Assembly (NCBI GenBank): GCA_026414745.1
Contig: JAOAIK010000001.1
Location: 1-37,038 of the forward strand
Direction of reading: 5' to 3'
Length of the DNA stretch: 37,038 bases
Origin: Roseococcus sp.
GTDB taxonomy: Bacteria > Pseudomonadota > Alphaproteobacteria > Acetobacterales > Acetobacteraceae
Below, one piece after another: positions 33,228 to 36,170 of the stretch; the stretch's first letter is position 1, and every line of letters starts with the position of its first letter. Made by a program: the position numbers and the translations under genes. A model generated the notes under the pieces. The model saw only the letters and a program-made list of their open reading frames with translations, had not been told where the DNA came from and ran no database searches.

Positions 33228-34358
33228 GTGCAGCGCGTCCTCGTCCTCGACATCGAGACCCTGCCCGACCTCGCGGCGGGCCGCGCGCTGCTGGACATGC
33301 CCGAAGCCGACGAGGCGGCAGTGCGCGCCGCGCTCGGAATCCGCTCCGCGCGCCCGGGCGAGGCGCCGGAGCGCGCCTTCCTCAAGCCACCGCTGCACCG
33401 GCTCTGCTGCCTCGGCCTTCTGGTCGCCGGGCGCGCCGCCCCCGACGAGCCCTGGCAGGTGGAGCGCATCCGCACCCCGACCGTGGCGGAGCAGCCGGAG
33501 GCCGTGCTGCTCGCGCGCTTCGACGCGGCGCTGCGCGGCGGGCCGGGGCTGATCGGCTTCAACTCGGGCGGCTTCGACCTGCCCGTACTGCGCTATCGCG
33601 CCCTGGCACTGGGCGTGCCCATGCCCCACCTGCACGCACCCGGCTTCGGCTATCTGCACCGCTACGGCGAGCGCCACCTCGACCTGATGGACCGGCTCTC
33701 GGGCTATCGCGCCTCGCCGGCACCCAGCCTCGGCGAATGCGCGGCGCTGCTTGGCCTCGCCCTGAAGGCGGAGATGGACGGCGAGGGGGTGGAGGCGCTC
33801 TGGGCCGCCGGGGAGGCGGCGCGAATCGCCGCCTATTGCCGCACCGACCTCGCCGCCACATGGCTGCTCGCGCTGCGCTGGTGGCTGGTCACGGGGGCGC
33901 TCACGGAGGAGTTGGCCCGGGAGAGCCTGCACGGCTTCGCCGAGGCCATCGAGTCGGGGGCGCTGGGCGAGGGGCTGGGGGCCATCGCCGCGGCGGCGCG
34001 GCGGGCGGCGGGGGGACTGATACCACACGCACGAAGGTGTCACCTTCGCGCCCCTCGGTCGGGCGCCCATGGCGGCACGCCGCCATGGGTCCCGTTGCCG
34101 GGCGGCGGCCCTCCGGCCGCCTTGGCGTCGCGGCACAGGCCGCGGGCCGCCTCCGCGGCCTCGGCCCTCCGGGCCGCAGGGTTCGGACTTCCTCCCCTTG
34201 GTATCACCCCGCGCCCAGCACCTGCGCCAGCGCCGCGCGCAGGGGCTTGGGGCGCAGCGCCTCGTCATAGGGCAGGCCGCGGGTGGTGGCGCCGTCCGCC
34301 CGGGCCACGGCAGGCTCCTTCACCAGCCAGGAATCGCGGTCGGTCAGGCCCCAGGTGA
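33228..34358 (+). CDS. Predicted 3'-5' exonuclease, PolB-like, with atypical tail
   Basis: DnaQ-fold exonuclease related to the proofreading domain of family B polymerases (PF10108 type). The metal residues appear in order: D8-I-E10 (LDIETLP), the Asp of FNSGGFDLPVL, HLDLMDRLSGY and the Asp of YCRTDLAATW. The start is GTG 33228 (MQRVLVLDIETLP). The domain is finished by about residue 263 (34015). The open frame then runs 113 residues further through the hairpin element and into the antisense of the xylanase gene as Arg/Pro/Ala low-complexity sequence. One base fewer in the G6 run at 34010-34015 would stop it at TGA 34018, so the natural protein is probably about 263 residues. Confidence 0.8.
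   Translation: MQRVLVLDIETLPDLAAGRALLDMPEADEAAVRAALGIRSARPGEAPERAFLKPPLHRLCCLGLLVAGRAAPDEPWQVERIRTPTVAEQPEAVLLARFDAALRGGPGLIGFNSGGFDLPVLRYRALALGVPMPHLHAPGFGYLHRYGERHLDLMDRLSGYRASPAPSLGECAALLGLALKAEMDGEGVEALWAAGEAARIAAYCRTDLAATWLLALRWWLVTGALTEELARESLHGFAEAIESGALGEGLGAIAAAARRAAGGLIPHARRCHLRAPRSGAHGGTPPWVPLPGGGPPAALASRHRPRAASAASALRAAGFGLPPLGITPRPAPAPAPRAGAWGAAPRHRAGRGWWRRPPGPRQAPSPARNRGRSGPR
34018..34206. repeat. Hairpin-dense element with TGATACCA terminal inverted repeats
   Basis: A 189-bp element lies between two convergent genes and begins with TGATACCA (34018-34025) and ends with its exact complement TGGTATCA (34199-34206). Inside are five stems: CGAAGG/CCTTCG (34032-34048); CCCATGGCGGC/GCCGCCATGGG (34066-34089); GGCGGCC/GGCCGCC with loop CTCC (34104-34121); GGCCGC/GCGGCC with loop CTCC (34145-34160); CGGCCC/GGGCCG with loop TCC (34162-34176). 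On the minus strand, which is the xylanase 3' UTR, the loops read GGAG/GGAG/GGA. The xylanase TGA stop is the outer end of one terminal repeat. No protein is encoded. It may be a REP/MITE-like repeat or an RNA element. Confidence 0.7.
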
Positions 34359-35307
34359 GCACGTTGCGCACCCCGCCCTCGATGGCGGCGGCGAGGAAGC
34401 GTCCGGCATAGTCGGCCACCGCCGCATCCCGATCGGCAAGGCTGGGCGCGAGGCTGTCGGGCTCGCGGACGTCGAGTTCGGTCACCAGCACCGCGAGGCC
34501 GAGGTCGCGCAGCGCCCGCAGGAAGGCGATGAGGGGTTCGGGGCGGAAGGGATCGCGCATCTGCAGATGCGCCTGCACCCCCACGGCATCGAGCGGCACG
34601 CCGCGCTCGACAAGGCCGCGCGCCACGCGCAGCAGACGCTGGCGCTTGGCCCCGGCGTGCGGGGTATCCGCCTCCACCCCGTAGTCATTGAGGGTGAGGC
34701 GCAGCGTGGGGTCGAGCTGCCGGGCGAGGCGCAGGGCGCGTTCGAGGTAGCCGGGGCCGAGGGCGGCCAGCCAGGGGGTGGGGCGCAGGTCGCCCTCGGT
34801 CGCGCTCGGGTTGTCGCTGCCAGGGGGGTTCGCGATCACCTCGTTCAGCACGTCCCAGTCGCGGATCGCCTCGCGCGTCTCGCGCAGCACGGCGGTGAAG
34901 TGGGTCTCCATGAGGGCGGCGGCGCGGCGCGGACCCTCAGCGAGCGCGGCCGTGAGCCACCCCGGCATGGCGGCGTGCCAGATCAGCGCATGGCCCCGCA
35001 CCCGCTGGTGATGCCGCTGCGCGAAGCCGAGAATGGCGCGCAGCGGGGCAAACTCGAAGCGCCCCTCCTCCGGCTGCAGCGCATCCCACTTCGCCTCCCA
35101 TTCGGGCACGAGCAGCTCGGCCTCGCGCGCCACCAGCGCGGCAAGCTCCGGATCCGTGGCGAGGAGATCGGCCCGCACGGCGGTCCCGAAAACGAGGCCG
35201 CGCGCGCGGGCGACCTGGCGCAGCGGGGCCTCCTGGGCCGCAAGCGGCGGCGCGGCGCAGGCCGGGAGCGCGCCCAGCGCCGCCAGCACCCGCCGGCGCC
35301 GGATCAC
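34204..35307 (-). CDS. GH10 endo-1,4-beta-xylanase
   Basis: Glycoside hydrolase family 10 enzyme of 367 residues that cleaves internal beta-1,4-xylosidic bonds with retention. Acid/base Glu156 lies in WDVLNE and nucleophile Glu277 in VTELDV; GHALIWHAAMPGW (105-117) and LNDYG (206-210) are further family signatures. The N-terminus MIRRRRVLAALGALPACAAPPLAAQ is a signal peptide with an Arg-rich Tat-like start; LPAC (14-17) could be a lipobox, otherwise cleavage would follow AAQ. So it acts outside the cytoplasm. The start is GTG 35307, overlapping the stop of the ferritin-like gene; no carbohydrate-uptake genes are nearby. Confidence 0.88.
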   Translation of the reverse strand: MIRRRRVLAALGALPACAAPPLAAQEAPLRQVARARGLVFGTAVRADLLATDPELAALVAREAELLVPEWEAKWDALQPEEGRFEFAPLRAILGFAQRHHQRVRGHALIWHAAMPGWLTAALAEGPRRAAALMETHFTAVLRETREAIRDWDVLNEVIANPPGSDNPSATEGDLRPTPWLAALGPGYLERALRLARQLDPTLRLTLNDYGVEADTPHAGAKRQRLLRVARGLVERGVPLDAVGVQAHLQMRDPFRPEPLIAFLRALRDLGLAVLVTELDVREPDSLAPSLADRDAAVADYAGRFLAAAIEGGVRNVLTWGLTDRDSWLVKEPAVARADGATTRGLPYDEALRPKPLRAALAQVLGAG

Positions 35308-36170
35308 GCCGCCCGCGCGAGGCCGGGAGAGTCGCTGTTGGCCGCGAGCTGCCGGGCCAGGGCGTGGCGGTAGCGGTCCCGCCGCCAGCAGAGCAGGCGC
35401 CATGCACCCTTGGCCGCGATGTCCGCCATCCGGCCGCGCGGCTCCAGCCCGATCGCCTTGAAGATCATGCCCATCCCGCGCTCGATGTGACGGAATCGGT
35501 AGAAGCTCATGGCGCGGCCCATGTAGCCTGCCAGGCAGCGGTCATGGTCGTAGACGAGGCCCGGTGGGTCGTTGCTGCAGTGGAAGGCGAAGGCCAGCTC
35601 GTCATCCTCCGTCTCGCCGATGCGGCCGAGGGCAACGCGCAGCCGCTTCGTGAAGGAGAGGTTCTCCCGCGCCAGGTAGCGCTTCATGTGGTCGTAGAAG
35701 AGCTTGAAGTGCCGGTATTCGTCCGCCGCGATGAGGCGGCAGATCTCCTTCAGCACCGGCTCCTCCGACGCCTCGCCGAGCGCGGTGTAGTAGCTGGAGG
35801 TGCCCGTTTCCACCATGCAGCGGGCGATGAGCTCCCCTGTGCGGGAGCCGCGGATGGAGGCGTCCGCCTTCACGTCGATCTTGAAGCCGGCGCGGTACTT
35901 CTCGAAGGCGGCGGGGTAGTCGAAGGAGGGATCGGCGAGAGTGGCCCATTTGCCGAGCGCGTCGCCGTGCTGCACCTCCTCGACGGCCCAGTTCTCGGCG
36001 GCCTGCTGGAAATCGGGATCGTCCCGGAAGACCGACTTGAGATAGAGCGCGTAGTCGTCGCCGTTGCGCTCCACCATGGCGGCCGCCTTGACCAGCGGCA
36101 CCACCTCCGGGTCGACCTTCGCGGGGTCGAACCTGTCCCAGGCCACCTGCTCGATCGTCCAGTGCTTCAT
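35304..36170 (-). CDS. Ferritin-like di-iron protein
   Basis: A 288-residue, mostly helical protein of the ferritin-like superfamily. The di-iron ligands fit Glu34 (MVERNGDDY), Glu65-x2-His68 (EEVQHGD), Glu121 (MVETGTSSYY) and Glu151-x2-His154 (DEYRHFKLFYDH), the two ExxH motifs of di-iron carboxylate proteins such as rubrerythrin, AurF or acyl-ACP desaturase relatives. It could be an oxygenase/desaturase or an iron/peroxide protein; the sequence does not decide. A GGGGAGTGGGGTGG purine-rich site precedes ATG 36170. Translationally coupled to the xylanase gene (GTGA overlap). Confidence 0.83.
   Translation of the reverse strand: MKHWTIEQVAWDRFDPAKVDPEVVPLVKAAAMVERNGDDYALYLKSVFRDDPDFQQAAENWAVEEVQHGDALGKWATLADPSFDYPAAFEKYRAGFKIDVKADASIRGSRTGELIARCMVETGTSSYYTALGEASEEPVLKEICRLIAADEYRHFKLFYDHMKRYLARENLSFTKRLRVALGRIGETEDDELAFAFHCSNDPPGLVYDHDRCLAGYMGRAMSFYRFRHIERGMGMIFKAIGLEPRGRMADIAAKGAWRLLCWRRDRYRHALARQLAANSDSPGLARAA

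Follow-up and report, generated by a model that had tools for sequence, protein, structure and literature searches.

The insertion between the exonuclease and GH10 genes

The window, by which we mean the whole stretch of 37,038 nucleotides analysed here, comes from a Roseococcus sp. genome of 3.2 Mb in 63 contigs, 91.5% complete (G000 hereafter). It carries a gene of the PolB-type 3'-5' exonuclease family (PF10108) at 33228-34358 on the forward strand and a GH10 gene (PF00331, xylanase family) at 34204-35403 on the reverse strand. An insertion of 189 bp, including both of its flanking triplets, occupies 34018-34206; its limits were taken from the alignment of near-complete copies, among which it belongs to the long form. 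A sequence-only reading of this DNA had placed the element between two convergent genes, and convergent they are, but the frame of the left gene runs through the element: the exonuclease gene has lost its own stop and is extended by about 113 codons to 34358. The right-hand triplet of the insertion (TCA at 34204-34206, TGA on the reverse strand) is the stop codon of the GH10 gene, which has thereby been retained and is now formed by the element's end; the GH10 mRNA would therefore bear the element directly after its TGA. Since the exonuclease gene was left without its stop, the window copy is not harmless on both sides. The exonuclease-like frame (33228-34358) stays open across the element and then continues antisense to the GH10 gene.

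The left triplet of the insertion (34018-34020, forward strand) is TGA, which differs from the right one; most other copies have TCA or TGA at this place. It is followed by the left element end TACCA (34021-34025, forward strand), which opens a longer imperfect inverted repeat TACCACACGCACGAAGG, and the right element end is TGGTA (34199-34203, reverse strand). The sequence-only reading had described exact 8-bp terminal inverted repeats. Both matches are present, TGATACCA at 34018-34025 and its reverse complement at 34199-34206, with no other match in 37 kb (0.04 expected from shuffles), but the repeat is partly accidental, because the outer TGA and TCA are discordant target triplets and the 8 bp consist of five true end bases plus chance triplets.

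Internally the element is a succession of hairpins. A subterminal hairpin GCACGAAGGTG/CACCTTCGCGC lies at 34029-34051 and is followed by an optional hairpin module GGGCGCCCATGGCGGC..GCCGCCATGGGTCCC at 34061-34093 (stem at 34066-34089), which is flanked by GTC/GTT 3-bp repeats and is missing from the short form of the element. Four core hairpins come next: H2 (34104-34121, loop CTCC, that is GGAG on the reverse strand), whose stems show compensatory changes in relatives, H3 (34129-34144, loop ACAG), H4 (34145-34160, loop CTCC) and H5 (34163-34175, loop TCC). Folding of 34018-34206 gave -119.7 and -125.6 kcal/mol, one value per strand, and on both strands, which the earlier reading had proposed to fold, the element was more stable than its dinucleotide shuffles (z about -5.8; none of 200 shuffles as good). 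The stems claimed earlier were thus borne out, as were three loops reading GGA(G) on the xylanase strand, while the ACAG loop is not a GGA loop. Such GGA loops were the ground for suspecting a CsrA-binding or anti-Shine-Dalgarno small RNA, a reading that we now find hardly credible. The check for CsrA in the genome itself returned no match to PF02599 in G000 (at 91.5% completeness), nor was there one in the 20 other genomes of the genus, and the loops of the later stems often differ in relatives, where they read ATTC, GTTC or AGAA. As for a small RNA of the cuckoo type, the one test made was a search of Rfam, which had no match above threshold.

Dispersed copies and empty orthologous sites

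A search of the window's own genome at E values up to 10 returned 64 pieces, and those to which loci were assigned (to L030) were resolved into 20 near-complete copies, one left-truncated copy (L021) and two core fragments (L022 and L025). The fragments are excluded from the count of 21 copies used below. The aligned pieces are 80-94% identical to the window copy. Near-complete copies span 152-191 bp and fall into two forms, a long one (about 187-191 bp) and a short one (152-155 bp); the latter, represented by seven copies in the alignment, lacks a 36-bp hairpin module, and two copies (L011, L012) bear internal deletions. On both sides the copies end in TACCAMRCGCACGA-like sequence, which gives them similar terminal inverted repeats, and both orientations occur. 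A scan of G000 with the end pattern TSATACCAMRCGCACGA at up to 3 mismatches gave 46 matches, of which 39 are the ends of the 21 copies, paired at element length, and 7 are solitary, one of them with a single mismatch (C9:43627). The scan is noisy, as the reversed control gave 32 matches at the same threshold. It contained no pair of ends spaced at insertion-sequence length, and by end pattern no autonomous element was found. The element is short, multicopy and non-coding, its coding capacity being judged by length and variable stems only, and it had no match in the plasmid collection searched. A single copy without conservation, the outcome that the sequence-only reading had named as contrary to it, is not what was found.

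The optional hairpin resembles a nested mini-element, a palindrome of 33-34 bp (GGG..CCCAT..ATGGG..CCC) between 3-bp repeats, which are GTC in most G000 copies and GCC in copies of the second family described below; it is present or absent in both families.

We examined the same loci in the closest relative found, a genome of the same genus with about 88% identity at the window locus (G010). The same two genes are present there, the element is absent, and six bases lie between the aligned parts (GGC TAG CTA CCC). The exonuclease orthologue ends in TAG just before the insertion point, and CTA is the TAG stop aligned with the GH10 stop. When the flanks of 19 further G000 copies were searched in G010 with one joined query, 16 of the 21 copies could be paired with G010 sites, and none of the 16 sites bears this element; one of the pairs (L019) may be a paralogue, as it sits in a transposase-like gene whose G010 counterpart is a PF01609 match (C31:1124-1639), and for another (L014) the right flank was taken only from about 100 bases off the element. 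Short partial matches were noticed at three paired loci, two of them far from the site and the third (L009) within a different G010 element which occupies the same stop codon. The cleanest empty site is that of L008, where a single TCA stands between the aligned flanks in G010; at L006 a single TGA is found on the left side. Some other sites have another palindrome in G010. Orthologous sites are thus occupied in one species and empty in its sister, and because the element is absent at the paired sites the copies are recent insertions. To judge from these sequence comparisons, 34018-34206 is a copy, inserted recently, of a small mobile element that has no coding function, and the suggestion of a mobile or dispersed repeat made from the window alone has held. 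Two copies, L019 (C48) and L018 (C7), lie in or beside transposase-like genes, and the G010 counterparts of their flanks are PF01609 loci (C31 and C30).

A second family in the sister species

G010 has its own amplified family, different in sequence, whose members measure about 129 and 166 bp and run from TACCAGCGGCCGC to the TACGGTCGGCATG hairpin at the opposite end. Matches to its left end with at most 1 mismatch number 209 in G010 vs 3 in G000. The two ends of this family are not inverted repeats of each other, so terminal inverted repeats are a property of the G000 family and not of this one. A hairpin like the optional module of G000 is present or absent among the copies. Our sample consisted of 60 of the 80 listed exact end matches; 5 of the 60 had no recognised right end, and 2 of the remaining 55 had no gene call. 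On the left, 79 of the 80 listed exact end matches have TCA or TTA as their triplet and none has TGA; all 55 copies in which both ends were recognised likewise show one of these two triplets, even where no stop was called.

In about a fifth of the G010 insertions TAC, mostly TACGG, follows directly past the far triplet (L147, L165, L170, L181, L195, L197, L199), so that elements seem to stack at the same stop codon in this genome. Also in G010, locus L125 (C5:17481-17513) carries a solo 33-bp palindrome TGATACGGTCGGCATGACATGCCGACCGTATGA under the same triplet rule, the smallest such element that we observed.

Duplication of the target triplet

The outer triplets of the G000 copies are TCA/TCA in 10 of 21 and TGA/TGA in 5, and they are discordant or degraded in the other 6, including the window copy (TGA/TCA). 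Among the G010 copies with both ends, 50 of 55 have TCA/TCA and 2 have TTA/TTA; two of the four copies with TTA on the left carry TCA on the right. Eleven TACCA-ended elements in five other genera have concordant triplets in 8 cases, of the kinds TCA, TGA, TAA and TTA. By this concordance the outer triplets are, as far as it can be read from the copies, a 3-bp target duplication of TNA. Duplications of this kind are known from some groups of the IS5 family.

The terminal TGA could instead be the cleavage site of an IS200/IS605 or REP/RAYT element, moved as single-stranded DNA by a Y1 transposase, and the hairpins at both ends, the strict orientation to the target in G010 and the lack of inverted repetition between the two G010 ends would suit such an element. 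We think this very unlikely: the triplets change in concert on both sides and are of four kinds in the other genera, which fits duplication, and PF01797, the Y1 transposase family of IS200/IS605 and RAYT, had no match in either G000 or G010 and was found in only 1 of the 21 genomes of the genus.

Insertion at stop codons

From the window copy, one of whose outer triplets is the xylanase stop, it had been suggested that such elements sit at stop codons, and the other copies uphold this. Gene ends were called by a simple rule of GC content by codon position, without annotation. In G000, 15 of 21 copies have as their triplet the exact stop of a neighbouring gene, which lies to the right in 13 and to the left in 2 (the stop at L007 is TAG), and a stricter rule of coding signal gave 15 of 21 again, all 15 clear. 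Eleven of the right-hand cases have a paired G010 site, and in every one a stop codon stands at the corresponding position there (TGA in 8, TAG in 2 and TAA in 1). Among the callable G010 copies the end triplet was exactly the stop of the right-hand gene in 45 of 53, whereas the left-hand gene stopped there in none of 51; under the stricter rule these counts become 39 of 39 and 0 of 12, with 14 weak and 2 without a call, and all 8 misses were weak calls. In the five other genera a stop codon coincides with the triplet in 8 of 11 elements, on one side in five of them and on the opposite side in three, and TAA is among these stops. Under the stricter rule four of the eight have a clear coding signal and four a weak one.

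These counts have to be read against chance. Since the terminal triplet already reads TGA, a random frame would stop there one third of the time, and against this expectation the observed fractions are improbable (45/53, P 1e-14; 15/21, P 4e-4; 8/11, P 0.009). A model built on the window also gives about one third of harmless TNA sites as stops, since its 37 gene calls end in 30 TGA and 7 TAG, to be set against about 60 further TNA triplets in sequence not assigned to genes, a figure that is too high because the exonuclease gene had been left uncalled. A local control, in which any TNA up to 60 nt downstream is taken as equal to the stop, expects 62%, and 60 of 74 were observed (P 3e-4). Much of the excess at stop codons thus needs no special mechanism, and most of it can be survivorship, with a modest remainder.

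We consider it probable that both families are non-autonomous, MITE-like elements which target TRA and find safe harbours in stop codons. The element would be inserted at TRA (TGA or TAA) by an enzyme supplied in trans, with duplication of the triplet; copies at stop codons would persist, and those inside needed genes would be lost. The stop codon would be a safe harbour since a gene that is hit there still ends in a stop once its TGA or TAA has been duplicated. In G010 the target would be read directionally, so that the same end always abuts the gene, and recognition of TRA in one direction by the enzyme is the best reading of the orientation seen there. The enzyme, its one-way recognition of the target and the view that survivorship is what mainly produces the stop excess are inferred from these patterns together. 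Counting against the reading are the lack of a transposase with matching ends in the two families searched and the triplets that disagree or are degraded in 6 of the 21 G000 copies. Two copies speak against harmlessness: that of the window, which did not spare the left gene, and L019, which is inside a transposase-like gene.

The machinery might on the other hand be led to stop codons as such, by termination of translation or transcription or by structure at gene ends. Exact placement at a stop in 60 of 74 copies of two genomes, as against about one third of TNA outside genes, is what such active targeting would produce, and so is the persistence of the excess under the local control (P 3e-4 at 0.62), the position of all 39 G010 copies with a clear right-flanking gene at its stop, and the lack of an upstream motif: in G010 we saw none beyond codon structure before the triplet, and past it weak base preferences, which come in part from stacked elements. 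Nevertheless we regard active targeting as unlikely. Survivorship accounts for most of the excess, and the reading of TRA also holds at the 8 G010 copies for which no stop was called, an indication that the triplet is the target, not the codon. The weak downstream preferences and the copy in the transposase-like gene (L019) likewise favour a sequence target.

A target duplication that rebuilds the stop codon it hits would explain, simply and in general terms, how small elements spread harmlessly in gene-dense genomes. Furthermore, two sister species follow the same rule with different element sequences, which suggests that the rule belongs to the enzyme.

Candidate enzymes and relation to known elements

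Transposases were sought in two families, PF01609 (DDE_Tnp_1) and PF01797, in assemblies that are fragmented. PF01609 had no match in G000, and none of its 15 matches in G010 had the ends of the G010 element nearby. A pair of ends 1212 bp apart at L136 encloses open frames, among which no transposase was seen by eye, and it was set aside. The search for near-perfect ends gave six pairs and is not a census.

The elements resemble MITEs in being short, non-coding and multicopy, in their inverted-repeat ends (G000), in the 3-bp TNA duplication and in their presence or absence between sister species. They differ in that the TACCA ends are unlike IS5-type ends, with no partner found, in that the G010 ends are not inverted repeats, and in that the insertions concentrate on stop codons, in one orientation in G010. 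With the REP elements of the GTAG and CGTC classes, as far as these are set out in the relevant parts of PMC3733652, they share a palindromic make-up, dispersal and a place outside genes; here, unlike in those classes, there is no visible tag layout, no RAYT was found, and the elements are longer and composite and have a duplicated triplet. The same parts of that paper describe tagged REPs of alphaproteobacteria and give CGTC repeats as missing from Acetobacteraceae. The inverted-repeat-replacing transposition of IS1272, from what is excerpted of PMC5678879, is alike in that insertion is linked to palindromes, whereas the present elements make a 3-bp duplication and show no replacement. In one open-access collection, searched by titles and opening abstract lines, we found no report of stop-codon-anchored elements or of the core described below.

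The hairpin core and the ends of transcripts

The part of the element at about 34097-34180 is one instance of a structured repeat with a wider distribution, made up of CCCTCARNCGCCGGGC-hairpin-TTGGC and, after it, additional hairpins. Of 249 genomes of the family, 37 contain the exact core pattern, with as many as 50 occurrences in a single genome, and the reversed control had one match. A full stem is formed by 32 of 39 distinct hairpin inserts, and some of the 7 others may have been split by the non-greedy match. In the variable stems a change on one side is matched by a change on the other, so that pairing is maintained (for example at 12-13 of 13 positions vs 6-8 in shuffles), and the loop is TCC or NTCC in 25 of the 39. 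Among the matches listed, a stricter core pattern was found in Roseomonas, Falsiroseomonas, Neoroseomonas, Roseicella, Plastoroseomonas and Roseococcus and also in Qipengyuania, Porphyrobacter, Blastomonas and Altererythrobacter, and the core is present in 64 stretches of viral contigs. Several relatives have it without TACCA ends, by eye a few bases past a stop codon or a T-rich tract. As the core is found elsewhere without these ends, the window element is a composite of a TACCA-ended mobile frame and a widespread hairpin core. Neither frame nor core scored above threshold in Rfam. A weak full-length covariance match of the Burkholderia small RNA ncS011 (RF02867) to the region of a Qipengyuania core copy, at 30 bits vs a gathering score of 48, was dismissed; its fit depends on a terminator-like hairpin that lies beyond the core, and the window element has no such match. 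This conserved core occurs in at least two alphaproteobacterial orders as well as in viral contigs, and neither Rfam nor the literature searched offered a name for it.

A terminating or protective action on transcripts, or a slowing of termination near the stop codon, may be why the hairpins have been retained, which would make the element a functional 3'-UTR element or terminator. Its strong fold on both strands, the compensatory changes in the core stems, the place of the core, judged by eye, close past gene ends in several relatives and after T-rich tracts in several Sphingomonadales and viral contigs all agree with this. REPs in E. coli offer a parallel: according to the passages of PMC12306157 that deal with them, those close to stop codons affect translation and, at less than 16 nt, can lower it. 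We consider such a function as the reason for the element's position possible but rather improbable, since none of the 16 paired G010 sites has this element and, where one is present, it is of another family, and since exact adjacency to the stop together with triplet duplication are signs of insertion. Under the preferred reading, insertion at TRA with survival at stop codons, many genes in one species, and others in its sister, would have recently gained structured 3' UTRs, and because these gains differ between the sisters, the effect of structure at a stop codon can be tested by comparing orthologues.

In a still wider picture, which we offer tentatively and would not ourselves bet on, a transposition system spread through the Acetobacteraceae lands at stop codons: one type of enzyme would read TRA directionally, duplicate the stop and so furnish genes with new 3' UTRs in the form of exchangeable structured cassettes, almost irrespective of cassette sequence, and the core, often part of what it carries and circulating in viruses and Sphingomonadales, may act on transcript ends.

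Some arrangements of the core are worth recording. In Qipengyuania and other Sphingomonadales (L303, L256, L273, L277) it lies after T-rich tracts, once (L303) with a terminator-like hairpin immediately before it, as though it targeted terminators or was partnered with them. In a genome of another genus (G031; L040, L054, L059) cores stand head to tail at a spacing of about 98-99 bp. The viral contig IMGVR_UViG_2708742415_000004 has 5, 9 and 4 core matches in L353, L392 and L394, stretches which possibly overlap, and several of its cores form tandem arrays with a period of 108 bp.
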